Source: Bacteroides sp. | Lineage (GTDB): Bacteria > Bacteroidota > Bacteroidia > Bacteroidales > Muribaculaceae | Length of the DNA: 51,472 nucleotides | NCBI GenBank assembly: GCA_023666905.1 | Contig: JAMPBC010000009.1 | Coordinates: 1-51,472 of the forward strand | Reading direction: 5' to 3' | Part shown: in pieces, positions 2,761 through 51,239 of the stretch | Position numbering within the stretch: the stretch's first letter is position 1 | How the letters are laid out: the number at the start of each line of letters is the position of its first letter | Made by a program: the position numbers and the translations under genes | The notes under the pieces: generated by a model | What the model saw: only the letters and a program-made list of their open reading frames with translations | What the model was told of the DNA's origin: nothing | Database searches by the model: none

Positions 2761-2763
2761 ACC

Positions 2764-4473
2764 ATGGTTGAAGGAGAACAACTTGAAAATACCGCTCAAT
2801 TTGCGAGCAAATGCATTGTCGATTTAATGCGCAAAGCCGGCATCCGTCAGGCAATTGCTTGTCCCGGTTCACGCAACACTCCGTTGCTGCTTGCATTGTC
2901 ACGCTGCCCTGAGATTACAACCCGCGTGGTGGTTGATGAACGCTCGGCCGCTTTCATTGCCCTTGGCATGGCATCTATTTCAATGGAACCGGTTGCAGTA
3001 GTGTGCACTTCGGGCACTGCCTTGTTGAATCTTGCACCTGCGGTGGCTGAAGCTTATTACAGGAAAATACCTCTGATAGTTGTTTCGGCCGACAGGCCCA
3101 TGGCCTGGATTGACCAGGATGATTCGCAAACCATTCGCCAATTCCGTGCCCTTGATAACTTTGTTAAAAAAAGTTATGACATTCCCGATTATGATAATGT
3201 GGAAATGCGATGGTATGCTAACCGCATTGTAAACGATGCGCTCATAGAATGTCGCCAACAGCCCATGGGCCCCGTACACATCAACGTGCAGATCGGGGAA
3301 CCGGTTGGAGCTCTTGCTCCTCACATTCCGTCGCATGAAAGATTCGTAACCGTTGTCTCAGCACGCAACGACATTGACGTGACACTTTCGCGGCAATTGG
3401 GCTGTGAACTGGCATCGCCTAAAAAGGTTATGATTGTAGCCGGGTTTTGCAATCCCGATCCGGTGCTTAACAAAGCCTTAAACCGTCTGTCGCGTTTGCC
3501 CAATTTTATTGTGCTCACTGAAACTATTGCCAATTTGCATGGCGATGACTTTGTTTCTGATATTGATGCCACTCTGAGCTCCATGACACTTGCCGAGCGC
3601 AAAGAATTGCAGCCGGATGTGGTAATATCATTGGGCGGGAGCATTGTTTCACGCTTCATAAAAAAATATCTGCGTGAAGCCCATCCCGCACAACATTGGC
3701 ATGTAGGACATGGCTTGACTACGGTCGATTGCTTCCAGTCGCTCACCAAACGAATTGAAGTTTCTCCAGGAATTTTCTTCAGGCAACTGGCTTCGGCTAT
3801 GCAGCCACACCAATCGCCCTCGGATTATGGCCGGAAATGGCGTCGTGTTCGCGATGCTTCACGTTCTCTGCATCAGTCGTTCATCGCATCGGCTCCTTGG
3901 TGCGATTTAAAAGCCTTCGCAACATTCCTGCCAATGATTCCTCGCAACTGCAACATCCAGCTCTCTAACGGTACTCCGGTACGCTACGCCCAACTGCTGA
4001 CCGCACGCCGATTTCACCGGTGCGATTGCAATCGCGGGGTTAGCGGCATTGACGGTTCTACTTCAACAGCCATTGGTGCTTCACTAACTTACAAAGCAGC
4101 TCCAACCATTCTCATAACCGGCGACATGAGCGCGCAATACGATGTTGGCGCTCTTGGAAGCGGACTGCTGTCGCCCCGGTTTAAAATGATTGTGATGTGC
4201 AACGGCGGAGGTGGTATTTTCCACTTCATCTGTACTACACGTTCGCTCGACATTGTAGAACAATTTTTTGACAAACCTTGCTCTTTCCCGGCAAAAGAAC
4301 TTGCTCAAGCTTACAATATGGCCTTTTTTGAAGCTGAAAGCGAAGATTCGCTCCGAAGCAATTTCCCGCATTTCATGACTGAGATGAACCGCCCGTCAAT
4401 GCTTGCCATAAAGACTTCCGGCCAGATTTCCGGAAAAGTGCTTACAGAATATTTTTCAACGATACATCCCTGA
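2764..4473 (+). CDS. menD: MenD, SEPHCHC synthase (menaquinone)
   Basis: Thiamine-diphosphate enzyme that condenses isochorismate with 2-oxoglutarate to give SEPHCHC, the first committed menaquinone step. Seen: CPGSRNTPLLLA near residue 33, catalytic Glu59 in VVDERSAAF, the NRGVSGIDGS block, and the TPP/Mg site made of GDMSAQYD and CNGGGGIF. The 569-aa length is normal. It begins 3 bp after mlaF and heads menD-B-C-E. The usual upstream partner menF (isochorismate synthase) is not here. Cofactor is TPP, made by the pathway encoded later in this window. Confidence 0.96.
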   Translation: MVEGEQLENTAQFASKCIVDLMRKAGIRQAIACPGSRNTPLLLALSRCPEITTRVVVDERSAAFIALGMASISMEPVAVVCTSGTALLNLAPAVAEAYYRKIPLIVVSADRPMAWIDQDDSQTIRQFRALDNFVKKSYDIPDYDNVEMRWYANRIVNDALIECRQQPMGPVHINVQIGEPVGALAPHIPSHERFVTVVSARNDIDVTLSRQLGCELASPKKVMIVAGFCNPDPVLNKALNRLSRLPNFIVLTETIANLHGDDFVSDIDATLSSMTLAERKELQPDVVISLGGSIVSRFIKKYLREAHPAQHWHVGHGLTTVDCFQSLTKRIEVSPGIFFRQLASAMQPHQSPSDYGRKWRRVRDASRSLHQSFIASAPWCDLKAFATFLPMIPRNCNIQLSNGTPVRYAQLLTARRFHRCDCNRGVSGIDGSTSTAIGASLTYKAAPTILITGDMSAQYDVGALGSGLLSPRFKMIVMCNGGGGIFHFICTTRSLDIVEQFFDKPCSFPAKELAQAYNMAFFEAESEDSLRSNFPHFMTEMNRPSMLAIKTSGQISGKVLTEYFSTIHP

Positions 4474-4492
4474 TACTTAATAACTATATAAT

Positions 4493-5311
4493 ATGAGGAC
4501 TTGGACCACAATTAAAGAATATACTGACATACTGTTTCAACAGTGTGGAAAAGTGGCTAAAATAACCATAAACCGTCCGCAAGTTTACAATGCATTCCGG
4601 CCGCTAACCAACAAAGAGATGCTTGATGCCATGGCTTATTGCCGTGAAGCATCGGATATAGGTGTGATTATTCTCACCGGCACCGGCGACAAAGCATTTT
4701 GCTCCGGCGGCGACCAAAAGGTGAAAGGGGTAGGGGGGTACATTGACGAGAATGGCGTTCCTCGCCTTAATGTTCTCGACCTCCATAAGGCCATCCGCTC
4801 CATTCCCAAGCCGGTTATTGCCATGGTCAATGGTTATGCCATTGGTGGCGGACACGTGCTTCACGTTGTGTGCGATTTGACCATTGCATCAGAAAATGCT
4901 CGCTTTGGCCAGACCGGGCCTAAAGTGGGAAGCTTCGATGCCGGATTCGGTTCGTCGTATCTTGCCCGCTGCGTTGGGCAGAAGAAAGCCCGTGAAATAT
5001 GGTTCCTGTGCCGCCAGTACACAGCTCGCGAGGCCGAAGCCATGGGAATGGTTAACAAGGTTGTCCCGTTTGACCAACTGGAGGATGAAACAATGGACTG
5101 GTGTGAAACAATACTCAAACGCAGCCCCATGGCCATCCGCATGATTAAACGCGCGCTGAATGCTGAACTTGACGGACAGCGTGGCATGATGGAATTCGCC
5201 GGCGATGCAACCCTTATGTACTATCTGATGGCTGAAGCTCAGGAAGGTAAAAATGCTTTTTTGGAAAAGCGCGACCCCGATTTTGACCAATTTCCTAAAT
5301 TTCCCGGTTAA
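4493..5311 (+). CDS. menB: MenB, 1,4-dihydroxy-2-naphthoyl-CoA synthase
   Basis: Crotonase-fold enzyme closing the second ring of menaquinone by intramolecular Claisen condensation of o-succinylbenzoyl-CoA. Oxyanion-hole segments are AFCSGGDQ and [12 protein letters not shown]; the active-site loop [16 protein letters not shown] follows. The Gly in FGQTG is the residue found in bicarbonate-dependent (type I) MenB enzymes, so that type is likely. At 272 aa it is full length and ends in the typical FPKFPG. It lies 19 bp after menD and 5 bp before menC, in the order D-B-C-E rather than strict pathway order. Confidence 0.97.
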
Positions 5312-5316
5312 AAGAA

Positions 5317-6375
5317 ATGCTGAAAGCAGAGTTCGCCCCATACACCCTTGTTTTCAAGGAAACAGCCAGGACTTCACGCGAGGTAATGAACACCAAGCAA
5401 ACTTATTTTGTGCGTGTGTTCAATGAACAGAATCCCACCGTTGCCGGTTACGGCGAGTGCGCTTTGTTTCGCGGGCTCAGTTGCGACGATGTGGCTAACT
5501 ATGAGGAGATTCTTGCTTCTGCTTGCCGCGATGTCAATATGCTTTCGCAAGAGTCGTTAAGAGATTATCCGTCTATCCTTTTTGGTTTTGAAACGGCCAT
5601 GAACGATTTGCGCAACGGTGGCAACCTTACCCCTTTCCCTTCAACGTGGAGTGCAGGCGAGTGGGGAATCACCATCAACGGCTTGGTATGGATGGGTAGC
5701 ATTGAGCAGATGAGTCAACGAATAGAACAAAAAATACGCCAAGGTTTCCGTTGTCTGAAGTTCAAAGTGGGTGGTGAAGATTTTTACCGTGAGTTTGAAC
5801 TACTCCATGGTGTGAGACAACGTTTCAATGATAAGCAACTTGAAATAAGACTCGATGCCAATGGTGCTTTCTCGCCCGACGATGCATTGGGAAAATTGCA
5901 AAAATTGTCAACCTTGCACATTCATTCCATTGAGCAACCCGTTAAAGCCGGTAATGTTGACTTAATGGCAAAATTGTGCGCCGAATCGCCAATTCCCATT
6001 GCGCTTGACGAAGAACTCATCGGAGTAAACTCACCTGAAAAAAAGTACAAACTTCTCGATTCAATTCATCCACAATACATTATCCTTAAGCCTGCTCTCT
6101 GTGGCGGATTCTCAGGAGCCATGGAATGGAAAAGTATAGCGGAACTTCTTAATATCGGCTGGTGGGCCACTTCCGCTCTTGAGTCGAATGTGGGGCTCAA
6201 TGCAATAGCTCAATGGGTGTCGACACTGAAGGCTAAAATGCCACAAGGGCTCGGCACCGGTGCACTGTACACCAACAATATACCGTCGCCACTGGTCCAA
6301 ACAGGCGACTCATTATTTTACGACCCCGCCCAAAAGTGGGATAAATCGGTTTTAAACAATCTTAAATGGCAATAA
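5317..6375 (+). CDS. menC: MenC, o-succinylbenzoate synthase
   Basis: Enolase-superfamily dehydratase giving o-succinylbenzoate from SHCHC. The catalytic set is visible in order: KFKVGG (the first lysine pair, about residue 150), RLDANGAF (metal Asp), SIEQPV (metal Glu), ALDEELIG (metal Asp/Glu) and the second lysine in IILKPALCGGF. The 352-aa size is normal for Bacteroidales. The last 10 bp overlap the menE start, which implies translational coupling. Confidence 0.94.
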   Translation: MLKAEFAPYTLVFKETARTSREVMNTKQTYFVRVFNEQNPTVAGYGECALFRGLSCDDVANYEEILASACRDVNMLSQESLRDYPSILFGFETAMNDLRNGGNLTPFPSTWSAGEWGITINGLVWMGSIEQMSQRIEQKIRQGFRCLKFKVGGEDFYREFELLHGVRQRFNDKQLEIRLDANGAFSPDDALGKLQKLSTLHIHSIEQPVKAGNVDLMAKLCAESPIPIALDEELIGVNSPEKKYKLLDSIHPQYIILKPALCGGFSGAMEWKSIAELLNIGWWATSALESNVGLNAIAQWVSTLKAKMPQGLGTGALYTNNIPSPLVQTGDSLFYDPAQKWDKSVLNNLKWQ

Positions 6376-7334
6376 TAGGAGAAAATCCCGAGATATGCAA
6401 AGTGGAACGGTTCATGGCACTTTACCGTGATGAAAGCCCCGCTATCGGAGCTCATACATCAGGCTCCACGGGCGTACCGCAGATTGTAAATCTTGCTAAA
6501 GCAGATATGCGCGTATCGGCCGAAGCTACATGCCGGTTCTTTAACATTTCAAAAAACTCACTGCTATTTCTGCCGTTGCCAATTGATTATATAGCCGGCA
6601 AAATGATGATAATCAGAGCCGAAGTAAGTGGCGCCGACCTCATGGTAGAAAATCCGTCAAACAGACCGTTGCGTTCAGCACCTCCGGCCGATATTGACCT
6701 TGCCGCACTGGTTCCATCGCAAATTCCCGGATTATTTCTGTCGCCATGGATGAAGTGCATAAAAAATTTAATTGTGGGAGGAGCACCTCTTTCCCGCCAT
6801 CAGGAGCAATTGCTGCTTGACAGCGGCTTGAATTGCTATGCCACATACGGCATGACCGAGACGGCAAGCCATGTGGCTCTTCGAAAGCTCGGCGAGGACC
6901 GCTATATAGCTCTGCCTCATGTGAGGTTTTCAACTGATTCACGCGGCTGTCTTGTAATCACCTCACCGAAAATGACATTTAAATCTCTTGTAACCAATGA
7001 CATTGTTGATTTGATAACTCCGGAATCGTTCCGATGGCTCGGTCGCTATGATAATGTGATAAATTCAGGCGGAGTGAAAGTGCTCCCCGAAAAAATTGAA
7101 GAAAAGCTCGTTGATTTTATTCCCGGCCGTGAGTATTATATAACTTCGCGTACAAGCGAAAAGTGGGGCGAAGAAGTAGTGCTTGTTATAGAAGGTACAG
7201 AACCTGTCACCGGTATTGACTTTTCCAAAATGCCATCGCTGCTCAAAGCTGAAAAGCCCAAATCTGTGATTTATCTTGAGCGATTTGAACGCACATCGTC
7301 GGGAAAGGTAAAACGAAGAAACATAACGGAATAA
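6366..7334 (+). CDS. menE: MenE, o-succinylbenzoate-CoA ligase (compact form)
   Basis: ANL-superfamily adenylating enzyme that makes o-succinylbenzoyl-CoA for MenB. Core motifs are present: phosphate loop TSGSTGVP near residue 32, YGMTETASH near 165, LGRYDNVINSGGVK, and the A10 lysine in FERTSSGKVKRR at the C terminus. At 322 aa it is much shorter than the 450-490 aa MenE of Bacillus or E. coli: the region before the phosphate loop is almost entirely missing. Bacteroidales often have a short MenE, so I take it as intact, not truncated. It overlaps menC by 10 bp and is the last men gene. Confidence 0.92.
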   Translation: MAIIGENPEICKVERFMALYRDESPAIGAHTSGSTGVPQIVNLAKADMRVSAEATCRFFNISKNSLLFLPLPIDYIAGKMMIIRAEVSGADLMVENPSNRPLRSAPPADIDLAALVPSQIPGLFLSPWMKCIKNLIVGGAPLSRHQEQLLLDSGLNCYATYGMTETASHVALRKLGEDRYIALPHVRFSTDSRGCLVITSPKMTFKSLVTNDIVDLITPESFRWLGRYDNVINSGGVKVLPEKIEEKLVDFIPGREYYITSRTSEKWGEEVVLVIEGTEPVTGIDFSKMPSLLKAEKPKSVIYLERFERTSSGKVKRRNITE

Positions 7335-37423: not shown

Positions 37424-37455
37424 TTTGGTTTATTGAACATTATTTTTTAATTTTG
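37424..37455 (+). promoter_or_regulatory. Promoter of the thi operon
   Basis: TTTG (37424-37427), exactly 20 bp, TAATTTTG (37448-37455), just before the TPP riboswitch. The TTTG lies in the right arm of a weak hairpin after the helicase gene. Confidence 0.75.
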
Positions 37456-37462
37456 CACAAAA

Positions 37463-37552
37463 CGACAAAGGGGTGCTTGCGAACTATGTTCCAAAAGCTG
37501 AGATTTATACCCTCTGAACCTGAAGCGGGTAATTCCGCCGCAGGGATTGTTG
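37463..37552 (+). promoter_or_regulatory. TPP riboswitch (THI element)
   Basis: The THI-box core is unmistakable: GGGGTGC, GCTGAGA at about 37497, ATACCC, CTGAACCTGA at about 37513 and GGGTAAT followed by CGCAGGGA. P1 can form between CGACAA (37463-37468) and TTGTTG (37547-37552) with one GU pair. It binds TPP and should repress thiD and all genes behind it when TPP is plentiful. No U-tract terminator hairpin is obvious between it and thiD, so the control mode is open. Confidence 0.93.
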
Positions 37553-37633
37553 GTTAAATTCACCTTGAATCTCCCGGGGCACTTCCGGTCTCCTTCTGTC
37601 GTAATTGTTTGGTTACTAATGATTGTCTGAGAC

Positions 37634-38446
37634 ATGAAACAATATGTTCCCGTCCTATCCATAGCAGGCTCCGATTCATCTGGGGGCGCCGGCATTCAAG
37701 CCGACATCAAAACAATATCGGCCATTGGTTGCTATGCCATGACAGCCATCACATCGCTCACGGCCCAAAACACCACCGGTGTGTCAATGATTGAAGCCGT
37801 ATCCCCTGAAATGGTAAGCGAACAAATCAACATGGTTTATTCCGACATTCCCCCTTTGGCCGTAAAAACCGGTATGCTCTGCAACAAGGATATTGTTGAA
37901 GCTGTATCCAATAGGTTGGCCCTATTGCAAGTGACAAATCTTGTGGTCGACCCAGTAATGGTCTCCACTTCCGGTTCTCAGCTTCTTCAGGAGGACGCCA
38001 TTGAAAGTGTTAAACGTCATCTCTTCCCGTTGTCCGCAATCGTTACACCTAACAAACTCGAGGCCCGTCAGCTCACAGGCACATCTGACCCTTGGCTGCA
38101 GGTCATGGCGCTTCGGGATATGGGATGCCGCAACATCCTTCTCAAAGGAGGCGATGATGAACGACGCGACTACAAAGTAGACCTTCTTGCCCTTGAAGGC
38201 GACTCCGATTTCATAACACTCCGGGCCGATGCCGTAGCCACCTCAAACACCCATGGAACCGGCTGCACGCTCTCCTCCGCCATCGCATCTTATTTAGCCC
38301 TTGATTTTGACGTGGAGGAAGCCGTGACACGTGCAAAAATCTTCATCACCAAAGCTCTCAATGCCGGGGCAAGAGTTTCCATTGGCAAAGGCCACGGACC
38401 CGTTAATCATCTCTTCGCACCGCGCCACATGAAATTCCGACGTTAA
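37634..38446 (+). CDS. thiD: ThiD, HMP / HMP-phosphate kinase
   Basis: Phosphorylates hydroxymethylpyrimidine to the pyrophosphate for thiamine synthesis. Ribokinase-fold marks: IAGSDSSGGAGIQADIKT near residue 10, TALTAQNTTGV-type block, VDPVMVSTSG and the anion-hole NTHGTGCTLSSAIAS near the C terminus. The 270 aa are standard. It is the first gene after the riboswitch, following an 81-nt spacer. Confidence 0.95.
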   Translation: MKQYVPVLSIAGSDSSGGAGIQADIKTISAIGCYAMTAITSLTAQNTTGVSMIEAVSPEMVSEQINMVYSDIPPLAVKTGMLCNKDIVEAVSNRLALLQVTNLVVDPVMVSTSGSQLLQEDAIESVKRHLFPLSAIVTPNKLEARQLTGTSDPWLQVMALRDMGCRNILLKGGDDERRDYKVDLLALEGDSDFITLRADAVATSNTHGTGCTLSSAIASYLALDFDVEEAVTRAKIFITKALNAGARVSIGKGHGPVNHLFAPRHMKFRR

Positions 38447-38489
38447 CACATAAGTTTACACACAATCTAATAATGCAAATTCAATAAAT

Positions 38490-38690
38490 ATGAAAATAAT
38501 TCTCAACCACAAAGAAACCACAGTTCCTTCAGGCACAACACTTGGTAGGCTGCTTGAGCTTAACAGCATCCCGGCAGTTAGGGTTGCCGTGGCAGTGAAT
38601 GAAAAGGTTGTACCCAAATCCCTGCATTATTCACATGAGCTTTTTGAAAACGACAATGTTATTGTAATCAAAGCTTTCTATGGTGGCTGA
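38490..38690 (+). CDS. thiS: ThiS, thiamine sulfur-carrier protein
   Basis: 66-aa beta-grasp sulfur carrier ending in the required Gly-Gly (KAFYGG), which is adenylated and thiocarboxylated to give sulfur to ThiG. The PSGTTLGRLLE and VAVAVNEKVVPKS blocks match ThiS. The activating enzyme thiF is not in this window. Its last 11 bp overlap the next gene. Confidence 0.93.
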   Translation: MKIILNHKETTVPSGTTLGRLLELNSIPAVRVAVAVNEKVVPKSLHYSHELFENDNVIVIKAFYGG

Positions 38691-39276
38691 GTCTCCATTT
38701 AAAATACTGATCACTCCTGAGGAAATATCCCGGCACGAGACTGCCTTCATTGTTGAGGCTCTCAATGCAGGGTGGAACATGGTACACCTCCGCCACCCTG
38801 ATGCCTCGACGCGCGACATGCGTAATCTCATTGAAGCCATTCCTCAAAATTACCATTCTCGTCTCCGCCTGCACGGCCACTTTGAATTGCTAACCTCTTT
38901 CAATCTCGGTGGAGTTCATCTGAATCATCGCTGCCCACAGGCCCCGGCATTCTTCAGCGGAAATCACAGTCGCTCATGTCATAGCTTTGATGAAGTGCGA
39001 AGCTCCGGTCAGTGCGACTACGTTACCCTTTCTCCCATCTTCAACAGCATCTCCAAAAATGGTTACAACGCTCGTTTTGATAAAAAAGAGCTTACTCAAA
39101 TAAGCAATTTGGCCAATTCAATTGTTAATACAAAGTTATTGGCCTTAGGCGGCATCTCGCCTCAAACAGCCCGTGAAGCCCTTGAACTTGGCTTTGACGG
39201 TTACGCTGTTTTAGGTTATCTGATGAACGCTTCCTCGCTTCAGGATTTCCGCCAAAGGCTACATGAGTTTGATTAA
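38680..39276 (+). CDS. tenI: TenI-like thiazole tautomerase (ThiE paralogue)
   Basis: 198-aa ThiE-fold protein, distinct from the true ThiE that follows. It has the fold's MVHLRHPD, GGVHL and LALGGISPQ segments, but the ThiE phosphate/pyrophosphate site is not kept (no DDR, no SxxGPxxxTxTK). Instead it has SRSCHSFDEV with His101, at the position of the TenI catalytic histidine, and LSPIFNSISKNGY as in TenI proteins. Likely role: aromatising the ThiG product. Translationally coupled to thiS by an 11-bp overlap. Confidence 0.8.
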   Translation: MVAESPFKILITPEEISRHETAFIVEALNAGWNMVHLRHPDASTRDMRNLIEAIPQNYHSRLRLHGHFELLTSFNLGGVHLNHRCPQAPAFFSGNHSRSCHSFDEVRSSGQCDYVTLSPIFNSISKNGYNARFDKKELTQISNLANSIVNTKLLALGGISPQTAREALELGFDGYAVLGYLMNASSLQDFRQRLHEFD

Positions 39277-39306
39277 ACAATTTATCAATATCCTAAATCC
39301 AAGACT

Positions 39307-39942
39307 ATGCTTCAGTTCATTACCCATCCATCCGATAAATACTCCATTGCCGAAGAAGTTCAAATGGCCATTGAAGGCGGTTGCCGCTGGATTCAGCTAC
39401 GAATGAAAAATGCTTCCGACGAAGAAGTCCGCGAAACTGCTCTTCAGCTTGTTGACATGTGCCGCGAACACGATGCCTTCCTCGTCATTGACGACCGTGT
39501 CAACGTGGTTAACGATCTCAAAGTTTCAGGTGTGCATCTCGGAAAGGACGACATGGGCCCGCTTGAAGCCCGCGAACTTCTCGGACCGAATGCCGTGATT
39601 GGCGTTACCGCCAACACTGCAGCCGACATCATCAAATATAAAGGAAAAGACATTGACTATGTTGGTCTTGGTCCCTTCCGCTACACCACAACCAAAGAAA
39701 AACTTTCGCCTGTCATTGGACTTGACGGTTACGCCAAAATAGTTAAAGAAGTCCGCGATGCCGGTGTTGAAATCCCCATTGTGGCTGTTGGCGGCATCAC
39801 TCTTTCCGATGTTGAACCCCTCATGAAAACAGGGGTCAACGGCATTGCTGTGTCCGGCGACATCATCAACGCTCCCGACCCCATGCTCCGGACATCCAAA
39901 ATAATGGAGAAACTCCTCGGAATACCTTACGATAAAGAATAA
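39307..39942 (+). CDS. thiE: ThiE, thiamine-phosphate synthase
   Basis: Joins HMP pyrophosphate and the thiazole phosphate. The complete active site is seen: WIQLRMKN, VIDDRVNV, GVHLGKDD, GVTANT, GLGPFRYTTTKE and VAVGGIT. At 211 aa it is normal. It lies next to its paralogue tenI, so the two should not be confused in annotation. Confidence 0.96.
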   Translation: MLQFITHPSDKYSIAEEVQMAIEGGCRWIQLRMKNASDEEVRETALQLVDMCREHDAFLVIDDRVNVVNDLKVSGVHLGKDDMGPLEARELLGPNAVIGVTANTAADIIKYKGKDIDYVGLGPFRYTTTKEKLSPVIGLDGYAKIVKEVRDAGVEIPIVAVGGITLSDVEPLMKTGVNGIAVSGDIINAPDPMLRTSKIMEKLLGIPYDKE

Positions 39943-39978
39943 CCCCTAACATCTTACATAAGCCAATTATAGCAACAC

Positions 39979-40752
39979 ATGACTGACATACTGAACATTG
40001 GAGGACGAGAATTTAAGTCCAGACTCTTCGTGGGAACCGGAAAATTTTCGTCGAATAAACTCATGCTCGAATCCATTCTTGCTTCAGGTTCCGAAATGAT
40101 AACCGTGGCAATGAAACGCATCGACATGGAACATGAAGAGGAGGACGACATGCTCCGCCACATCAATCGCGACCATGTTCAATTTCTTCCGAACACTTCC
40201 GGAGTACGCGACGCGAAAGAAGCCGTAGTGGCAGCACATCTCGCACGCGAATGTTTCGGCACTGATTTCATTAAACTCGAAATTCACCCGGACCCCAAGT
40301 ATCTTCTTCCTGACCCCGTTGAAACCCTTGCAGCAACTGAGATACTTGCAAAAGAAGGATTCCATGTACTCCCATACATCCAGGCCGACCCTGTGTTGTG
40401 CAAGCGCCTTGAAGAAGTTGGAACCGCAGCCGTTATGCCTCTCGGAGCTCCCATTGGTACCAACAAAGGCCTTAAAACACGCGACCTGCTTGAAATAATC
40501 ATAGCCGAAAGCCGTGTGCCCGTGGTAATCGATGCCGGACTCGGAGCGCCCTCTCATGCCGCTGAAGCCATGGAAATGGGAGCCGATGCCGTCCTTGTCA
40601 ACACAGCAATTGCCGTTTCAAACAACCCCGTTGAAATGGCCCGGGCCTTCAAACTCGCTGTTGAAGCCGGACGCATGGCCAGGCTCGCCGGCCTCGGCTC
40701 TGTGAGTGGTTTCGCACAGGCAACAAGCCCTCTCACATCTTTTCTATATTGA
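39979..40752 (+). CDS. thiG: ThiG, thiazole synthase
   Basis: Builds the thiazole from deoxyxylulose phosphate, dehydroglycine (from ThiH) and ThiS thiocarboxylate. Blocks: [30 protein letters not shown] (with the Schiff-base Lys), [13 protein letters not shown] and [19 protein letters not shown]. The 257 aa are standard. Located between thiE and thiC; its partner thiH is displaced downstream. Confidence 0.96.
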
Positions 40753-40803
40753 AATCCCACATAACCTAATAATCTCATCACTTTGAATAATTCCCATAGT
40801 TAA

Positions 40804-42507
<1,704 letters not shown>

Positions 42508-42537: not shown

Positions 42538-43092
42538 ATGCATCACAAACTTTTAAAACTCCTCCTGCTCATTGTCGCACTAAGCATGGGTTCCCCTTGC
42601 GTGGCGCAAAGAGTGGCACTGAAAAGCAACGTCATTGACTGGTTGCTCATCTCGCCAAACCTCTCCATGGAAGCCCGAATCTCGCCAAGGATAACTCTGG
42701 ACTTTGGTGTTGCTGTAAACCCCTTTGACAAAATCCCTTACGGGTCTGATATTAAACTTCGCAATTTTCGCATCAACCCCGAAGTGAGATATTGGTTCAA
42801 CCGCCCCATGGCTAAGCATTTTGTAGGCTTCGCTCTCTCAGGCGGTTCCTACAATCTGGAACTTAAAGAACATTGCTACAACGGCGACTTCTTTGCTGCC
42901 GGTTTCACTTACGGCTATGCTCTTGTCCTTTCCAAATACTGGAACGTTGAGTTCACTGCCGGAATCGGGTTGGCAAAGCTACATGGTTTCGACTATCGGA
43001 AGGATGAGGAGAAGCCCTATGAGCCGAACAATCACAAGTGGATTCCGGTGCCCATACGTGCCGGTGTCACCTTTTCCTACATGTTGCACTAA
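42538..43092 (+). CDS. DUF3575-like outer-membrane beta-barrel protein
   Basis: 184 aa with a signal peptide (about residues 1-24, ends CVAQ) and barrel-like strands. The layout ALKSNVIDWLLISPNLSMEA, ITLDFGVAVNPF, RNFRINPEVRYWFNRPM, KHFVGFALSGGSYNLEL and VPIRAGVTFSYMLH is that of Bacteroidales DUF3575 proteins, often found with OmpA-like DUF3868 partners near fimbrial genes. Here it lies inside the thi operon, 30 bp after thiC and 14 bp before the next gene, and no fimbrillin is nearby. Biological role is unknown; the thiamine link rests on operon position alone. Confidence 0.75.
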   Translation: MHHKLLKLLLLIVALSMGSPCVAQRVALKSNVIDWLLISPNLSMEARISPRITLDFGVAVNPFDKIPYGSDIKLRNFRINPEVRYWFNRPMAKHFVGFALSGGSYNLELKEHCYNGDFFAAGFTYGYALVLSKYWNVEFTAGIGLAKLHGFDYRKDEEKPYEPNNHKWIPVPIRAGVTFSYMLH

Positions 43093-43106
43093 AAGCTGAG
43101 ACAATT

Positions 43107-45152
43107 ATGAAAAGGTTCTGTTTATTAATCGGCATCTTATTTGCCGCAACCTCGGCCCTGATGGCTCGCGACATAAATGTGCGCGGTATCGTTACCAACT
43201 CCTCCGGCGAACCTATTCAGGGTGTAACCATTTACGACGCAGAGAACGAAAAGCTCCTCTCCAGCACCAACGAGGAGGGGAAGTTCCTTGTCATTGCCGA
43301 CTCGGAAGGGAAACTCCTCTTCTCAATTCTTGGCATGGAGGACACCGAAGTGCCTGTTGAGGGAAGGCTCACCATTGACGTTGTTCTTTCCCGCTCGGCT
43401 ATCACACTTGATGAAATTCTTGTCAAAGGGAAAAGCAAGCTGAAAGTTGTAGCCCCTGAGGAAACCGACATTGAGATAAAGGGCAACTACGCTCACATAA
43501 AAACACGTGTCAAAGTCCCTTCACATTTGTTCAACACTTCAACCCGACTGATAATCCAGCCTGCGCTCTACAACGTCACCACTTCCAAAATGTGGTATCT
43601 TAAGCCGCTTGTTTACGACGGATGGCGTTATCAGGACACCCAACAGCGAATGCACGATTTCAAGCGTGACGCTGACCCGCTGTCGCCTTATGTTACACTG
43701 CGTTCAAGTTCACAAGGAGGCGATGACATTATTGCCTGGAGCGACTCGGTTTACCTTGATCACCCGAACCATGATTTCCACTGCGACATGCTCATGGCCA
43801 TGGAGGATTATAACAAGGTGTTTTACCGCGACACCACAACCATTGCCCGAGGCATTGTCAACCCCATGCGTTTTTTCCGTTACAGCATTTTGGGAACTGA
43901 AGTAACCGACTCGGCCTTTTTCCCCACACCTGAAATGCAAATGCGTGACACAAAAGGTGATGTGATGCTCACCTTCCGCGTCAACGATGCCCACCTTGAC
44001 CTGAACGAAGGCAACAACCGCTCGGAAATGAATGGCCTTATCAATCAGCTACGCGAGTTTGAAAACAACCCCGATGCTGCCATTAAAAGCTTTGCAATCT
44101 ACAGTACTTCATCGCCCGAGGGTAGCTATGACCACAACCTTGACCTCTCACGGCGCCGTATGAACTCGGCATTGTCCCTGATAACCGAGAACCTCTCGCC
44201 TCAGACCCGCCGCTATATCGAACTCAACAGCGATGCCTCGGTGGCCACTTGGAACGACCTCATTGACATGCTGCGGGCCGATGACCTCAACGAGGAAGCC
44301 GACGCCATTCAGGAAATAGTCAACCGCTATCCCGGCAACAGTCTGAATCAATCGGTGGCAGTGAAGCGCCTGCCATTCTATAATTCAATTCTGGCAACGA
44401 AGTATCTGCCCCGCCTGCGTAAGGTGAGCTACGAGTATGTTACCTCGCAATTCCGTTACCTCTCCGATGATGAAATTGCGCAAACCTACCTTACCAATCC
44501 CTCCTCTCTTTCCCGTTACGAATTTTTCAGATTGTACAGAAACATTGCAAAGACTCCGCAAGAGCGTGAAACATACATAAAGAAAGCTCTCGAGGTACAT
44601 CCAAAGTTCCTTGTCGCGGCCAACGACCTCGCCGCCATGAAGATTGAGCAAGGTGAACCCGATGTTTCCATTCTGGAACCCTTTGTAAAACCGGGTGCCA
44701 AGAAAATTCCGAATGAAAGCCGTGTCAATCAGATTGCAGCATGCCTCGCCGCTCAGAAATACCTGTTGGCCGATTCACTGGCTTCGGAGTTGCCGGACAT
44801 GCCTGAGTTCCATAAGCCCAAAATGTATGTGGCAGCCTTCAACGGACGATACACTGACGCCATTCAGGAGATAGCCGATGAGTCGCCGGTTAATGAAGTG
44901 GTGCTTCTGTTAGCTCTCAAATCCAACGACCTGGCCTGGCGTAAAGCCCAGCAGCTTGGCAACAGTGCCGAGGAGGAATATCTCAAAGCAATTGCGGCAA
45001 ACCGTGTCGACGAATACATGGCTGCCATCAACCACTTGGAGCGGGCCCTGCGTCTTAATCCGAAATTGCGGGAAACAGCACTGGTGGACGGTGACATTAT
45101 TGAACTACTTGAGGACCTTGAGGACTCGGGCAGAGAGGAGGTGGAACAATGA
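43107..45152 (+). CDS. Periplasmic OmpA-like / carboxypeptidase-D-like / TPR multidomain protein
   Basis: 681 aa after placing the start at 43107 (MKRFCLLIG), which gives a signal peptide to about residue 20. Order: a CarboxypepD_reg-like beta-sandwich (about 23-108, GIVTNSSGEPIQGVTIYD, FSILGMED); an unrecognised middle (120-285); an OmpA-like segment (285-375) with SSPEGSYDHNLDLSRRR, where Asn344 and the RRR replace the usual peptidoglycan-contact residues; and a helical TPR-like end (about 480-665). It resembles DUF3868 partners of DUF3575 barrels. The ATGA overlap with the next gene shows coupling. Function not known. Confidence 0.72.
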   Translation: MKRFCLLIGILFAATSALMARDINVRGIVTNSSGEPIQGVTIYDAENEKLLSSTNEEGKFLVIADSEGKLLFSILGMEDTEVPVEGRLTIDVVLSRSAITLDEILVKGKSKLKVVAPEETDIEIKGNYAHIKTRVKVPSHLFNTSTRLIIQPALYNVTTSKMWYLKPLVYDGWRYQDTQQRMHDFKRDADPLSPYVTLRSSSQGGDDIIAWSDSVYLDHPNHDFHCDMLMAMEDYNKVFYRDTTTIARGIVNPMRFFRYSILGTEVTDSAFFPTPEMQMRDTKGDVMLTFRVNDAHLDLNEGNNRSEMNGLINQLREFENNPDAAIKSFAIYSTSSPEGSYDHNLDLSRRRMNSALSLITENLSPQTRRYIELNSDASVATWNDLIDMLRADDLNEEADAIQEIVNRYPGNSLNQSVAVKRLPFYNSILATKYLPRLRKVSYEYVTSQFRYLSDDEIAQTYLTNPSSLSRYEFFRLYRNIAKTPQERETYIKKALEVHPKFLVAANDLAAMKIEQGEPDVSILEPFVKPGAKKIPNESRVNQIAACLAAQKYLLADSLASELPDMPEFHKPKMYVAAFNGRYTDAIQEIADESPVNEVVLLLALKSNDLAWRKAQQLGNSAEEEYLKAIAANRVDEYMAAINHLERALRLNPKLRETALVDGDIIELLEDLEDSGREEVEQ

Positions 45153-47446
45153 AACGGTTAGCAATATCTCTCTTGGCAGTTGCCGCCGGTGTACTGACCG
45201 GTTCAAGTTTCGCAGCCGGAGCTGATTCAACCTTCACAGTGACGCGCGACTCAACCATGAATGCTCTTGACTATGTGTTGCAACGTCCGGCTCCGTCGCC
45301 CCGCTATGAACACAAACGTTTTGGTGACAGACTGTTCCTTACCGGAGCTGTTGGTCCGGACTGGACAAGAAGCAAAGACGGTCAGTTAGGCGCCACTTCA
45401 AGGACCGGTGTCCGCGGCGGACTGTCGGTAGGGGACTGGGTGAGTCCTGTGCATGGTTGGCGTGTGAACATTGAAACGGGTCGCCATAAGGGTATGTATG
45501 GGTCCGATCCTTTTTTCGTTGGACTCTCGGCCGACTATATGATGAATCTCAGCACGCTGCTCAAAGGCGACAATCCTGACCGCCGTTTTGAACTGACAGG
45601 GTTTGCCGGTTTGGAGTTCGAGTGGGTTCATCGGTGCCACTTTGAGTTGCGCAATGCCTTCGGAGTCCATTTTGGACTTCAGCCCAGAGCGTACATAACT
45701 CCTAACACATTCGTGTACATTGAACCTCGTATAGGAATTTTCTCCGACAACATTGACATTATGAAGACTTGGCACAAGTATGACTGGAACGCCTCGCTAA
45801 TGGTTGGTATAGGCTACAGGATGCGCCCGGTCAAGCGCCGCTTCATTGACAATTCGTTGTTTGACAATTCCAGTTTCCGCGACCACTTGTTTTTCGGTGT
45901 GAGTGGAGGTATGAACCTCTCCGGCTCCGGAACCGAGAACTTTGCCCACCGTCTCGGGTCGGACCTCAGCTTTTTTGCCGGCAAGTGGTTCACGCCCTCA
46001 TCCGGTGTTAGAATATTGGGTGGAATCGGCGACTTGAAACGCCCCGAAATCTACAGGCGCTGGGCCGGACACATTGATGTTGACTACCTGTGGAACATCA
46101 GCTCATGTTTCAATGGCTATGACCCTGACCGCAAGTTCGACACCAACATTCTGCTGGGCGCGAGCGGAATGGTCACCAACGGCCATGACCATAGGTTCAA
46201 TCCGGCATTGCATGTGGGAATACAAGGTATCTACAATATCAACCCAACGATAGGTCTGTTCATAGAACCCGGTGTGAAATTCTTTGCGAAACACTTTAAC
46301 GGACTTGGCACTGACCGCTCGAACATTATGACCGGCGTTAATCTTGGTTTCATTTACCGCAGTGGCAGTCACAAAGATTATCTGAAACACAAGTCGGAGT
46401 TTCAGAAGGAAGACTTCCTCAACTCCCGCAGATACTTCTTTGACTTCAAAGGTGGCGTGTACATGAACAGTCGTGAGTGGGAGAGAAACTTCACTGCCGG
46501 CTTTGCAGTTGGCAAGTGGCTCAGCCCCGGAAATGCATTAAGGGTTACCGGGGAGTTCGACTTCATGCACAATTCCGAGGGTACAGGCAACTTCCGTTCG
46601 CTTACCATGGGACTGGACTATTTGGGCAGCCTTACCACTTTGATGAACGGTTACGACCCGGACCAGGTGTTCGATTTGGATGTGGTTCTTGGCGTGTCGG
46701 CCGGTGGAGCCCACTACAAGTCGAAGTATAACCGTGTTATCTGGGGACCGCATGCAGGACTGCGTGCCGCCGTGAGATTATCGCCGTCTCTGGACTTCAT
46801 TCTTGAGCCGAGATTGGAAGCAATGAGGATACCCCACTATGGCCGTAAGTTCACTCCGCAAGCCCACTTTATGGCCGGTTTGAGCTTCAAACCCAAGGGT
46901 CGTGTTAAATACACGTCAGGAAATGAGGCGGTGCTTATGACGAATGAGTTTGAGCGAAACTTCGTGTCAGTAACCGGAGGCCCGACATTGTTCAGCGAAA
47001 CCTTGATTGGAGGACAGTGCGATGCGCCCGACTGGTATGTGGATGCATCAGCGGGCCGATGGTTCAGCAAGGTGTCCGGTCTGCAACTTGGTTTAAGCTA
47101 TGACTTCATTGACCGCAAATGGCGAGATCCGCATTTGAACGTCGGGACGCTTCATCTTGACTATCTTTTGAACTTCAGCGCTCTCGTAACCGGATTGCCC
47201 GACACCCGATTCAGCCTTACAGGCATTGTTGGCACCGGTTTGGGCTGGAGCAATCACAATGCCGGATATGTGTCGCCCGAAGTGGAGCTTGGACTTATTG
47301 CGCGCTACCGACTGAATTCTCAGTTCAGCATATCGTTTAATCCCTCAATGGCATTCTGGCGTCCGGCTCTGAATCAGAACCGAGGCAACAATCACCACTT
47401 TATTGGAGTGGGGCGTATGCCGTTGGGCTTAACATATCATTTCTAA
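45149..47446 (+). CDS. Outer-membrane protein made of four tandem beta-barrel-like repeats
   Basis: 765 aa: signal peptide (1-23), a short linker, then four homologous units at about residues 61-228, 246-406, 427-587 and 603-765. Period is ~180 aa by three independent landmarks: (V/A)G(D/K/R)W(V/F/L)S/TP at 94, 277, 454, 635; DYL..-type NGYDPDR/Q at 128, 311, 489, 670; and (I/L/F)EP or NP at 191, 372, 552, 730. The end LTYHF has the aromatic terminal residue of BAM substrates. Four separate barrels or a single very large barrel are both possible. I do not recognise a named family. Its stop overlaps the thiH start by one base. Confidence 0.8.
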   Translation: MKRLAISLLAVAAGVLTGSSFAAGADSTFTVTRDSTMNALDYVLQRPAPSPRYEHKRFGDRLFLTGAVGPDWTRSKDGQLGATSRTGVRGGLSVGDWVSPVHGWRVNIETGRHKGMYGSDPFFVGLSADYMMNLSTLLKGDNPDRRFELTGFAGLEFEWVHRCHFELRNAFGVHFGLQPRAYITPNTFVYIEPRIGIFSDNIDIMKTWHKYDWNASLMVGIGYRMRPVKRRFIDNSLFDNSSFRDHLFFGVSGGMNLSGSGTENFAHRLGSDLSFFAGKWFTPSSGVRILGGIGDLKRPEIYRRWAGHIDVDYLWNISSCFNGYDPDRKFDTNILLGASGMVTNGHDHRFNPALHVGIQGIYNINPTIGLFIEPGVKFFAKHFNGLGTDRSNIMTGVNLGFIYRSGSHKDYLKHKSEFQKEDFLNSRRYFFDFKGGVYMNSREWERNFTAGFAVGKWLSPGNALRVTGEFDFMHNSEGTGNFRSLTMGLDYLGSLTTLMNGYDPDQVFDLDVVLGVSAGGAHYKSKYNRVIWGPHAGLRAAVRLSPSLDFILEPRLEAMRIPHYGRKFTPQAHFMAGLSFKPKGRVKYTSGNEAVLMTNEFERNFVSVTGGPTLFSETLIGGQCDAPDWYVDASAGRWFSKVSGLQLGLSYDFIDRKWRDPHLNVGTLHLDYLLNFSALVTGLPDTRFSLTGIVGTGLGWSNHNAGYVSPEVELGLIARYRLNSQFSISFNPSMAFWRPALNQNRGNNHHFIGVGRMPLGLTYHF
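45329..47443 (+). repeat. Four ~180-residue coding repeats (about 540 bp each) within the barrel gene
   Basis: Units span approximately 45329-45832, 45884-46366, 46427-46909 and 46955-47443. They are alike in protein but clearly diverged in DNA, so the duplications are old and not a recent tandem array or assembly artefact. Confidence 0.8.
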
Positions 47447-48555
47447 TGTTTTCAGATGAATTAAAAAAATATTCATGGGACGAGACCACCGAGTTCATAA
47501 ACAGCAGGACCGGTGCCGATGTGGAGCATGCGCTTGGTAAAGAGCATCTTGACATTGATGACTTCATGGCGTTGATTTCGCCTGCGGCTGAACCGTATCT
47601 TGAACAGATGGCTCAACTGTCACACCGCTACACTCTTGAACGGTTTGGCAAAACCATTTCAATGTATATTCCGCTGTATGTGTCGAATGCCTGCACGAAT
47701 GCGTGTGTGTATTGCGGATTCAATCATTCCAATCCCTTTACCCGTGTCACACTAACGCCGGAGCAGGTCAAGGCGGAATGTGAAGCAATAAGGAAGCTCG
47801 GCCCGTTCGAGAATCTGCTGATTGTTTCGGGAGAGTTCCCTTCGCTGAACGGAGTGAATTACCTGGAGCAAGTGCTTAAGATTGCGCGTCCTTACTTTAA
47901 CAATCTCACCATTGAGGTGATGCCTATGAAGGAGCGTGACTACTACAGACTGACCAAGAGCGGGCTGAACGGAGTGGTTTGCTTTCAGGAGACCTACCAT
48001 GAAGCCAATTACAAGAACTATCATCCACGCGGCATGAAATCGATTTTCAAGTGGCGCGTGGACGGGTTTGACCGGATGGGTATGGCCGGTGTTCACAAAA
48101 TTGGTATGGGTGTTCTCATTGGACTTGAGGACTGGCGCACCGATATAACCATGTTGGCGCGACACTTGCAGTATCTCAGAAAGAACTACTGGCGCACACG
48201 CTACAGCGTTAACTTCCCACGCATGTGTCCAGCCGAGGGCGGATTCCAGCCCAAGGTGATTATGAGCGACCGGGAGTTGGCTCTGGTGACTTTCGCCTTC
48301 CGCATTTTCGACCACGATGTGGACATTTCCTATTCAACACGTGAGGCGCATGAGTTCCGCGCCAATATGATGAAGCTCGGAGTTACATCCATGAGTGCCG
48401 GAAGCAAGACGGAACCTGGAGGCTATGTGTCGACCCCCGAGGCCCTCGAACAGTTTGAGGTGACCGATTCACGCACTCCGCTGCAGGTTGCCGATGAGAT
48501 ACGTTCATTAGGATACGAGCCTGTGTGGAAGGACTGGGACAAAATATTTGATTGA
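47446..48555 (+). CDS. thiH: ThiH, 2-iminoacetate synthase
   Basis: Radical-SAM tyrosine lyase supplying dehydroglycine to ThiG. The CX3CX2C iron-sulfur motif is Cys83, Cys87 and Cys90 in NACTNACVYC; GMGVLIGLEDWR and SINFPR-like SVNFPRMCP follow. At 369 aa it is complete. It starts on the last base of the four-repeat barrel stop codon, so translation is coupled to an envelope gene rather than to thiC. Confidence 0.96.
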   Translation: MFSDELKKYSWDETTEFINSRTGADVEHALGKEHLDIDDFMALISPAAEPYLEQMAQLSHRYTLERFGKTISMYIPLYVSNACTNACVYCGFNHSNPFTRVTLTPEQVKAECEAIRKLGPFENLLIVSGEFPSLNGVNYLEQVLKIARPYFNNLTIEVMPMKERDYYRLTKSGLNGVVCFQETYHEANYKNYHPRGMKSIFKWRVDGFDRMGMAGVHKIGMGVLIGLEDWRTDITMLARHLQYLRKNYWRTRYSVNFPRMCPAEGGFQPKVIMSDRELALVTFAFRIFDHDVDISYSTREAHEFRANMMKLGVTSMSAGSKTEPGGYVSTPEALEQFEVTDSRTPLQVADEIRSLGYEPVWKDWDKIFD

Positions 48556-48620: not shown

Positions 48621-51239
48621 ATGAAAGAATTAGCCACAAAATACAATCCTTCGGAGGTTGAGGACAAATGGTATGCTTACTGGATGGAGCACAATTTGTT
48701 TCACAGTGAGCCGGACAATCGCGAGCCATATTGCATTGTGATTCCGCCGCCTAACGTGACAGGAGTTCTCCACATGGGGCACATGCTCAACAATACCATT
48801 CAGGATATTCTTATCAGGCGTGCGCGCATGGATGGCTTCAATGCCCTGTGGGTTCCCGGCACAGACCACGCTTCCATTGCCACCGAGGCCAAGGTTGTTG
48901 CCAAGCTTGCCAAAGAGGGAATCAACAAGGCCAATTTGAGCCGCGAGGAATTTCTGAAACATGCCTGGGATTGGACCGACAAGTACGGAGGTATAATTCT
49001 GGAGCAATTGAAGAAGTTGGGAGCTTCCTGCGACTGGGAGCGCACAGCTTTCACCATGGACCCCATTCGTTCACGCAGCGTTACGCGAGTGTTTGTGGAG
49101 CTCTATCGCAAAGGCCTGATTTATCGCGGCAAGCGCATGGTTAACTGGGATCCGAAGGCCAGGACCGCGCTGAGCGACATAGAAGTTATTTACAAAGAGG
49201 AACACAGCAAACTCTACTACCTGCGTTACAAGATTGTGGGTGAGGATGGTTATGCTATTGTGGCCACCACGCGTCCTGAAACCATTATGGGCGACACGGC
49301 CATGTGTATCAATCCCAACGACCCCAAAAACCAGCATCTGCGCGGCAAACGCGTGATTGTTCCTCTTGTTGGACGCGAGATACCGGTTATAGAGGATGAG
49401 TATGTGGAGATTGATTTCGGTACCGGGTGCCTTAAAGTGACCCCGGCTCATGACATGAACGACTATATGCTCGGTCAGAAGCATAATTTGGAAACCATTG
49501 ACATTTTCAATGACGACGCCACACTGAGCGAAGCCGCCGGCATGTATGTGGGCATGGATCGTTTCGCTGTAAGGGAGCAGATTGCCAAAGACCTTGCCGA
49601 AGCCGGATTGATTGAGAAGGTGGAGGATTACGAAAACAAGGTTGGATATTCCGAACGAAACTCCGACACAGTTACGGAACCCCGTCTTTCCGACCAGTGG
49701 TTCATGAAAATGGACTCAATGGCCACTCCCGCACTTGAGATGGTGGAGGAGGACATTATCCGTTTCATCCCCGAGAAATACAAGAATACTTATCGCCATT
49801 GGATGACCGGGATACGCGACTGGTGCATATCGCGACAGCTGTGGTGGGGTCACCGCATCCCGGCCTGGTATCTGCCCGACGGCAGTTTTGTGGTTGCCGA
49901 GGATGAAACAGAAGCGTTGAACCTTGCCCGCGAAAAGAATCCGGAACTCAATCTGAGCGATTTGCATCAGGAGGAGGATGGTCTTGACACATGGTTCTCA
50001 TCGTGGCTGTGGCCCATTTCCCTTTTCAATGGAATACTCGAGCCTGACAATGCCGACATAAAATATTACTATCCAACCACCACACTGGTAACCGGACCGG
50101 ACATTATTTTCTTCTGGGTTGCCAGAATGATTATGGCCGGATGCGAGTTTATGGGCAAGCAGCCTTTCAACAACGTGTACTTTACCGGTATTGTGCGCGA
50201 TGAGATTGGACGCAAGATGTCGAAACAACTCGGCAACTCACCCGACCCGCTGCAATTGATTGCCGATTACGGAGCAGACGGTGTGAGAGTGGGCATAATG
50301 TTATGCGCTCCCGCTGGTAACGACATTCTTTTTGACAAGAAACTCTGTGAGACAGGCCGTAACTTCTCTAACAAGATTTGGAATGCATTCCGCCTTGTTA
50401 TGGGTTGGCAGGAAAGCAGTGAAGCAGCTCAGCCGGAATCGGCACGCTTTGCCATAAAATGGATGGAGTCGAAACTGAGCCAGTCCATTACCGAGATAAA
50501 TGACTTGATGGGCAAGTTCCGTATTTCAGAGGCCTTGAAGGAGCTTTATCGCTTGTTCTGGGACGACTTCTCTTCATGGTATCTTGAAATGGTAAAACCG
50601 GTTTACGGACAGCCCATTGACAGTGCGACACTTGAAGCGACAAAGGCTTATTTCGATTCATTGCTCAGACTGCTGCATCCGTTCATGCCGTTCATCACCG
50701 AAGAATTGTGGCAGCATCTTTCATCCCGCGCTGATGGAGAATCAATAATGTATGCTCCAACGCCTAAGGCTACCACCGTTGATACGGAGATTATCGAGCT
50801 TATGGAGCATGCCATGGAGGTTGTTAACGGAGTCCGCAATGTACGTGCTTCCAAAAACATACCCAACAAGGAGCAATTGGTTCTCAATATTCTCGGCACC
50901 TGGGACAAGCAGCAGGATGCAGCCATAGCAAAATTGGCCAATCTTGAGGCTGTGAACCACAATGCTGAAAAGGATGCTGCGGCAGCAACGTTTATTGTTG
51001 GCCGCACAGAGATTAATGTTCCTCTTGGCAAATCCATTGACCTTGAAAGCGAACTTGCCCGTTTAAACAAAGAACTTGACTATATTCAAGGGTTCCGCAC
51101 CTCGGTGATGAAGAAGTTGGGCAACGAGCGATTCGTAAACAATGCTCCTGCAGCAGTGGTTGAAGCAGAACGGAAGAAACTTGCCGATGCCGACGCAAAG
51201 ATTGCAAATCTCGAGGCTGCAATAAAGAGCTTATCGTAA
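48621..51239 (+). CDS. valS: ValS, valyl-tRNA synthetase
   Basis: 872-aa class I synthetase: HMGH (residues 51-54) as the HIGH signature, the CP1 editing domain (about 200-360), the KMSKS-type loop as [12 protein letters not shown] (532-536 KMSKQ, Gln in place of Ser), an anticodon-binding domain and a C-terminal coiled coil (about 815-872) with alternating Leu and Lys/Glu. The HIGH and KMSK cores are intact, so it should be active. Confidence 0.96.

Follow-up and report, generated by a model that had tools for sequence, protein, structure and literature searches.

We propose that three consecutive genes, here termed A, B and C and located between thiC and thiH in the thiamine (thi) operon of a Bacteroides sp. 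(Muribaculaceae), constitute a portable outer-membrane module that came into this position in an ancestor of one Muribaculaceae clade, and not a thiamine importer; we hold this reading with somewhat better than even confidence. The trio probably forms a surface or cell-wall structure brought under vitamin B1 control rather than a vitamin importer, because most relatives carrying the module have it elsewhere. The window, i.e. the whole stretch of DNA analyzed, comprises 51,472 nucleotides (GCA_023666905.1, contig JAMPBC010000009.1, positions 1 to 51,472, forward strand).

The operon, encoded on the plus strand, is composed of: (i) a Bacteroidetes-type promoter-like site (TTTG ... TAATTTTG; 37424..37455), distinguished by a pattern search directly 5' of the riboswitch; (ii) a TPP riboswitch aptamer (RF00059; 37459..37563; 67.2 bits vs. 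a gathering cut-off of 54.3), the only one found in this approximately 92% complete genome; (iii) open reading frames for thiD, thiS, a tenI-like gene, thiE, thiG and thiC (37634..42507), of which thiC occupies 40807-42507; (iv) gene A (42538..43092; 184 aa), gene B (43107..45152; 681 aa) and gene C (45149..47446; 765 aa); and (v) thiH (47446..48555; TIGR02351, 498.8 bits vs. a cut-off of 380). The thiS and tenI-like genes were named by family scans, while the names thiD, thiE, thiG and thiC derive from the original prediction, gene position and relatives. The gene order, coordinates and spacings given by that prediction all hold: 30 bp separate the end of thiC (42507) from A and 14 bp separate A from B, B and C overlap by 4 bp, and the stop codon of C overlaps the start codon of thiH by 1 bp (TAATG).

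The trio is probably placed on the TPP-controlled transcript, as judged from sequence features. A pattern search of the window found no TAnnTTTG motif over the plus-strand stretch spanning thiC, A, B and C, in agreement with the predicted lack of a promoter gap, and a consensus scan found no terminator-like sites between the operon genes. Two plus-strand terminator-like sites (43592 and 47141) lie inside B and C, with 6 such sites in all vs. 13.4 in shuffled sequences, and matches to E. coli-type promoters, some of them inside A and B, occur at chance level (12 vs. 11.0). According to PMC5613172, the thi genes of B. thetaiotaomicron (thiSEGCHF-tenI) likewise stand behind a TPP riboswitch and are down-regulated by thiamine, but there thiC is followed directly by thiH. 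The earlier interpretation is retained in part: with a promoter-like site 5' of the aptamer and no such box from thiC to C, the trio is probably on the TPP-controlled transcript, and we infer that A-B-C would be transcribed with the thi genes as a single unit and repressed by TPP. A strong hairpin between thiC and A, present in three of the five family carriers with the trio in thi and on a Paramuribaculum contig, could uncouple expression of the trio from that of the thi genes.

Gene A encodes a DUF3575 protein, as originally predicted (PF12099, E 8.7e-47, 159.1 bits vs. a gathering cut-off of 21.1), whose N-terminus resembles, by eye, a signal peptide. The periplasmic protein B, analyzed by Pfam and NCBIfam scans and hhalign, consists of a CarboxypepD_reg-like N-terminal domain (above the Pfam cut-off), an OmpA_C-like region and a C-terminal TPR-like part with weak Pfam matches under their cut-offs. 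Neither DUF3868 (PF12984) nor PF00691 gave a Pfam match in the window B protein at E up to 1, and in a Barnesiella B protein PF00691 scored below its cut-off (E 0.039; 14.7 vs. 27.2 bits). In the same genome, a DUF3575/OmpA-TPR pair on contig C46 adjoins Fimbrillin_C and Mfa2 genes, and the partner protein of this fimbrial locus (PF00691 20.8 vs. a cut-off of 27.2) aligns with B over the OmpA/TPR part (hhalign probability 98.8%). By sequence, A and B are related to this pair; the predicted comparison with DUF3575/DUF3868-type fimbrial pairs thus stands for the family of A and the alignment of B, and fails for DUF3868. The trio further differs from such pairs in the CarboxypepD_reg-like N-terminus of B and in having C where fimbrillins stand. 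Another such pair occurs on the short contig C40, with no fimbrillin or Mfa2 genes adjoining it in the ORF list. Among solved structures, B was matched only via its N-terminal domain (SusC-like proteins) and weakly via the TPR stretch, while A, C and the C repeats had no relative and only weak matches (E 0.17 or more).

Gene C is predicted, from a repeat profile and predicted strands, to encode a chain of four tandem OmpA-type 8-stranded barrels without the wall-binding domain of OmpA: barrel 1 (first-barrel type; aa 56-237; 45314..45859), barrel 2 (aa 241-418; 45869..46402), barrel 3 (aa 424-594; 46418..46930) and the last barrel, 4 (aa 598-765; 46940..47443), all on the plus strand. This bears out the four-repeat barrel of the original prediction, with 32 predicted strands, eight per repeat. 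Pfam, PF00691 included, gave no match on C at E up to 1, and homology of the repeats to DUF3575 was considered and not found (17.8% probability). The repeat profile matched the barrel of a Bacteroidales OmpA-family protein over 170 of 182 columns (99.2%, E 1e-19), and the genome's own OmpA-family protein matched the repeat model at 2.4e-32. Repeat number is 3-6 in 40 complete C proteins and 8 in another genome, with size changing in whole units of ~180 residues, and the first barrels of all 40 complete proteins fall in one split, so that barrel 1 is orthologous across them. The outer loops vary more than the periplasmic turns (entropy 2.51 vs. 1.61, p 4e-17); these conserved turns occur also in the one single-barrel relative aligned and are thus not special to the trio. 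A structure model of C, built on an alignment of the window protein with 20 four-repeat proteins among 41 named loci (see below), reached a pTM of 0.41 and a mean pLDDT of 72, values that do not fix the placement of the barrels.

To our knowledge, most multi-barrel chains have no established purpose. In the work of Solan et al. from 2021, combinations with 8-stranded barrels reportedly prevail and arose by lineage-specific amplification. Outer-membrane proteins with more than one complete barrel per chain are presented in PMC11494523 as a new class, to which C may belong, as homology and predicted strands favor several separate barrels in it. It would differ in its co-inherited partners A and B, in having 3-8 predicted barrels whose orthology follows their position in the chain and, within a single clade, in its probable TPP control. 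GfcD of the group 4 capsule, with two predicted barrels in one chain, is unlike C in that, according to the same paper, its 12- and 13-stranded barrels are joined by a periplasmic domain and it belongs to a different operon. The four Bacteroidales OmpA-family proteins scanned combine a single barrel with a PF00691 domain at the C-terminus, whereas C is predicted to have several barrels and gave no PF00691 match. In the literature on several barrels in one chain, as far as its texts were accessible, only GfcD (PMC11494523) and, cited in that paper, the study of Solan et al. were found, and the available portions of PMC13067283 and PMC6340704 contain nothing on this subject.

Among 198 family genomes, 21 carry the trio, and A-B-C lies within the thi operon in five of them and away from it in 16. 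Likewise, only five of 41 named loci are within thi and 36 are elsewhere (6 of 43 in thi after removal of overlaps), so that the trio does not always adjoin thi genes. Besides the window, A-B-C occur together in 20 orthologous family genomes, one of them with the trio split over two contigs, and all 41 named loci keep the genes together, apart from L079 and L099, in which a contig end leaves C absent or truncated. Since the B search scored at most five candidates per genome and the named loci rest on two peptide patterns, carriers can be missed; a first scan of the genome contigs with C alone as the query gave no match. Four other family genomes likewise have the trio flanked by thiC and thiH, and one in-operon copy is on a contig of Duncaniella muris DSM 103720. 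In 90 of 96 genomes with both genes on one contig and strand, the thiC-thiH gap is below 1 kb (median 26 bp), vs. ~5 kb in the five carriers (98 of 138 thiH rows, from genomes also having thiC; gaps measured from alignment ends, stop codon excluded). Outside thi, 20 scanned neighbor proteins included hisS, dnaA, malic enzyme, polysaccharide genes, a histidine kinase and cytochrome bd oxidase, and no shared functional neighbor was seen beyond closely similar loci. A TAnnTTTG motif lies within 300 bp 5' of A in 27 of the 36 non-thi loci and one of the five thi loci, and is absent there in the window itself, as compared with 232 of 2050 random windows (start moved for A proteins above 200 aa; at two of the non-thi loci the upstream sequence is shorter than 300 bp).

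The in-operon copies form a single clade in trees of B (support 1.0) and A (0.957). These trees omit proteins under ~150 (A) and 400 (B) residues, with L077_A dropped, A proteins were trimmed to their last 190 residues, and alignment A3 (B) excludes L079 and L096. Because this clade includes Duncaniella muris DSM 103720, and the same arrangement recurs in several genomes, including Isolate-110 records (neither labelled as a MAG), an assembly artefact was rejected. The trees do not agree in every respect: that of A pairs the window with G170 (0.894), that of B with Paramuribaculum (0.992). In the thiH and concatenated trees the window groups with two members of its own genus, G105 and G008, neither of which has a trio in thi; these trees do not support a transfer of the complete thi operon, trio included, from the Duncaniella side. 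Since thiC alone places the window and G105 beside the g7 genomes (0.759), part of the operon may have been exchanged. One insertion with many losses, or repeated exchange, may equally account for the thi placement. In the window/Paramuribaculum and Duncaniella-like lineages alike, the thi copies have kept their place behind thiC, with thiH following unless the contig ends there, so that the position may be selected rather than a product of mere capture.

According to the original prediction, the trio could be an envelope machine for thiamine precursors. Surface capture of thiamine or of one of its precursors (HMP, thiazole), in place of the TonB receptor/PnuT route, would fit a trio kept in a TPP-controlled operon in two lineages, and PnuT is absent in all five family genomes whose trio is in thi, in each of which one TPP riboswitch was found (that of G170, at 49.8 bits, below the cut-off); PnuT (PF04973) was not found in the window's genome (~92% complete). 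Six of the 11 other g7 genomes searched have PnuT, a split that a substitute importer predicts, vs. none of four in-thi g7 genomes (one-sided p ~0.09, calculated by hand; PnuT and TPP counts cover 26 selected genomes). Nevertheless, the trio and thiC show no association, thiC being present in 11 of 21 carriers vs. 104 of 198 genomes overall, i.e. at the background rate (Fisher p = 1). Moreover, the cassette has no inner-membrane transporter, A, B and C gave no TonB-receptor barrel match in Pfam and NCBIfam scans (the match of B to the SusC model is confined to a short N-terminal domain, residues 23-108), and of nine non-thi carriers searched three (G038, G059 and G041) have PnuT and six do not. 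Thiamine uptake by the trio is thus disfavored by distribution, thiC co-occurrence and PnuT presence, and we regard it as quite improbable; the location of the trio away from thi genes in most carriers is an outcome that the original prediction had itself named as refuting this idea. The alternative offered by the same prediction, an unrelated surface system using the thi transcript, fits better.

The kinship of A and B with the pair beside Fimbrillin_C and Mfa2 genes (contig C46) would suit a base that assembles or anchors a fimbria-like surface polymer, with C replacing the fimbrillins. We consider this unlikely, though still worth entertaining: no fimbrillin or Mfa2 domain was found in the 20 trio-neighbor proteins (E up to 0.001), the window trio itself being flanked by thiC and thiH, and C is predicted as membrane barrel throughout its repeats and lacks a long exported region. 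Very improbable, in our estimation, is the folding of C into one giant barrel forming a large pore (32 strands in the window protein, 24 to 64 in its relatives). Its repeats do follow one another head to tail, and their strand number is even, but each is equivalent to the complete barrel of OmpA-family proteins that have just one, linkers of 22-23 residues separate the sets of eight strands, and repeat number changes by whole units. A defense system was also considered and rejected, with no PADLOC match at E up to 0.01.

Under the preferred reading of a portable surface module, A-B-C would have entered between thiC and thiH in the clade ancestor and would now be read from the TPP-controlled thi promoter, so that the in-thi clade would make the module during thiamine scarcity. 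B may bind the cell wall, and A and B together would anchor C to peptidoglycan and keep its barrels in an ordered row, the variable loops facing outward and the conserved turns facing B. The result might be a surface platform serving adhesion or envelope stiffening, a function that we infer from these features. A more detailed form of this scheme is a wall-anchored array in which internal OmpA-type barrels are gained and lost between a fixed first and a fixed last barrel, B sits on the conserved turns of each barrel and, in the in-thi clade, thiamine scarcity turns on a different outer-membrane surface; we put it forward as speculation with a low chance of being correct.

Protein C offers a predicted multi-barrel chain with a constant two-gene partner set and a ladder of barrel numbers (3, 4, 5, 6 and 8) and, together with the deposited carrier Duncaniella muris DSM 103720, this renders its assembly, ordering and function testable. 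The thi insertion may represent a case of envelope genes under a metabolic riboswitch, in which added thiamine could serve as a natural off-switch for the module.

The window is the entire contig C76, part of a draft genome of 2.18 Mb that is very probably from a member of the Muribaculaceae. It contains a thi operon opening with a TPP riboswitch (37459-37563), located upstream of thiD and immediately preceded by a promoter-like site, a pattern match to the Bacteroidetes-type consensus. The riboswitch is followed by thiD, thiS, tenI, thiE, thiG and thiC, and then by three envelope genes (A, B and C, together the trio; 42538-47446), the last of which is so tightly joined to thiH that the final base of its stop codon is the first base of that gene. 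Gene coordinates and the riboswitch match thus bear out the original prediction in placing the trio inside a riboswitch-preceded thi operon. On the same strand, 65 bp after thiH, lies valS (48621-51239), which read-through from the thi operon may reach. Elsewhere in the window (1229-7331), an MlaE permease gene is followed by genes whose products have MenD-like TPP-enzyme, enoyl-CoA hydratase and AMP-binding domains, probably involved in menaquinone synthesis.

Close relatives of B (>480 bits) were found in 21 of 198 family genomes, including the window. In all 20 other carriers A, B and C adjoin (the G197 copy being spread over two contigs); the order thiC-A-B-C-thiH occurs in 4 of them, and no thi genes were detected near the trio in the remaining 16 (fetched stretches of 4 to 20 kb). 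thiC and thiH share a contig and a strand in 96 genomes; the gap between these genes is below 1 kb in 90 of them (median 26 bp), and in 5 it holds the trio and measures 4.9-5.1 kb. The sole genome of the 96 in which thiC and thiH are 1.9 Mb apart is G092 (contig C1). A second search, covering one genome per species (84,980 species), yielded 41 loci with titled records, from Duncaniella, Paramuribaculum, other Muribaculaceae, Barnesiella, Prevotella, Segatella and Caccoplasma, among others; 36 are outside thi and 5 within thi operons. Four of these five are the thi carriers found besides the window among the family genomes, and the fifth is on a Paramuribaculum contig in which thiC precedes A and which stops inside B. 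Nineteen of the 41 loci overlap the first search, giving a union of 43 carriers. The thiamine link first proposed for the trio is not supported by this comparison, as most carriers have it outside thi (6 of 43 within). Since such loci prevail and thiC occurs among carriers at background rate (11/21 vs. 104/198 genomes overall; p = 1), the trio has no general tie to thiamine synthesis. In one related genome (G041) a stop codon breaks gene A (L047:10909-11451), with B and C open.

The regions preceding A were also compared. As consensus counts, not mapped starts, 27 of the 36 non-thi loci have TAnnTTTG in the 300 bp before A (the sequence available there is shorter in 2 of the 36). The box is present at 1 of the 5 thi loci and absent in the window, and random 300-bp windows from the same loci contain it in 232 of 2050 cases; the full promoter pattern, counted in the same way, was found in 10/36, 0/5 and 33/2050, respectively. 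A strong hairpin lies between thiC and A in three family thi carriers and the Paramuribaculum contig (L059, L060, L061 and L079), two of which (L059 and L060) have another in the gap between C and thiH; none was found in the thiC-A gap of the window or of G170 (locus L062). Twenty neighbor proteins scanned at non-thi trios have unrelated housekeeping and surface functions. In two related genomes, the small RNA FopS (RF04319) is located about 600 bp 5' of the trio (L041:4035-4104 and L042:12229-12298).

Gene A encodes a DUF3575 protein, while the product of B comprises a CarboxypepD_reg-like domain, an OmpA_C-like middle part and a TPR-like end. In the middle part the S-P-x-G, N, L and R positions are invariant, a pattern presumably resembling the OmpA wall-binding motif; by the Pfam tests B scores neither as DUF3868 nor as OmpA. 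The window's genome carries two further DUF3575 genes, each adjoining an OmpA/TPR partner: one on contig C40 (L131:85-2187) and one on contig C46 (L132:1574-8498), the latter also next to Fimbrillin_C and Mfa2 genes and thus in a fimbrial locus. B aligned with this fimbrial-locus partner at 98.8% over 268 columns. The literature passages retrieved for DUF3575 and DUF3868 are expression or target tables giving the trio no function; in these, a DUF3868/DUF3575 group of Bacteroides thetaiotaomicron shifts with iron and a DUF3575 gene of Porphyromonas gingivalis is listed among hemin-responsive genes.

The C protein of the window has four repeats according to the repeat model, and the 40 complete C proteins divide into 5 with three repeats, 21 with four, 8 with five and 6 with six; a more distant trio in G274 (L153:3051-10585), with A and B upstream, has a C of 1587 residues and eight repeats. 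An AlphaFold2 model (mean pLDDT 72, pTM 0.41) predicts eight strands per repeat, 32 in total, with linkers of 22, 23 and 23 residues from one set of eight to the next; the predicted strands are credible, the predicted placement of the barrels is not. In OmpA, the N and C ends of the 8-stranded unit are in the periplasm. Assuming the same here, the loops between strands 1-2, 3-4, 5-6 and 7-8 would be outside, and in a 21-protein alignment these vary more than the periplasmic turns do (entropy 2.51 vs. 1.61). A single-barrel relative aligned to the repeat profile shows the same turns, which means that conserving them is no peculiarity of the trio. Searching with the C alignment gave matches in 32 of 149 genomes of the order, many of these lying in open frames some 400 residues long; the four matches scanned all have a C-terminal PF00691 and are therefore OmpA-family proteins. 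The repeat profile matched the N-terminal part of one of these four at 99.2% (170 of 182 columns; E 1e-19), and the window's genome encodes an OmpA-family protein with a single repeat-model match (2.4e-32). In a tree of 175 repeats from the 40 C proteins, all 40 first repeats form one split (support 0.925) and 35 of 40 last repeats another (0.8), neither with foreign members, and the last-but-one repeats are mixed (22/40 with 5 foreign); the end barrels therefore have fixed identity and the number varies mostly inside the row. Chains holding several barrels form a class already on record (PMC11494523, citing Solan et al., 2021), within which C would be a variant.

From domains and co-inheritance, A and B may act as an envelope-anchoring pair, with B supplying the wall-binding domain that the OmpA-type barrel row of C lacks. 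The benefit could be adhesion, envelope stiffening or a surface that changes to counter phage or antibodies, the data favoring none of these. A role in thiamine supply is a weaker reading: in each of the five genomes of the family whose trio lies in thi, one TPP riboswitch was found and PnuT is lacking. PnuT is present in 6 of 11 other genomes searched in g7 (a set on the Duncaniella side), but six of nine carriers searched outside thi also lack it (three have it), which makes the PnuT argument weak.

The six thi-embedded copies form one clade in the trees of A (0.957) and B (1.0). The B tree makes the Paramuribaculum contig the sister of the window (0.992) and unites the Duncaniella-like genomes (0.662), whereas in the A tree it is G170 that pairs with the window (0.894). 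In the thiH and thiC+thiH trees the window falls together with two genomes of the same genus that have no trio in thi, G105 and G008; thiC alone moves it, along with G105, next to G117 and G130 (0.759). In all three trees carriers are scattered among non-carriers. These trees would result equally from an ancient insertion followed by many losses and from segment exchange between thi operons. In the thi-embedded clade, the putative anchoring module would be made when TPP is low, and retention in two lineages speaks for the place between thiC and thiH being of some use.
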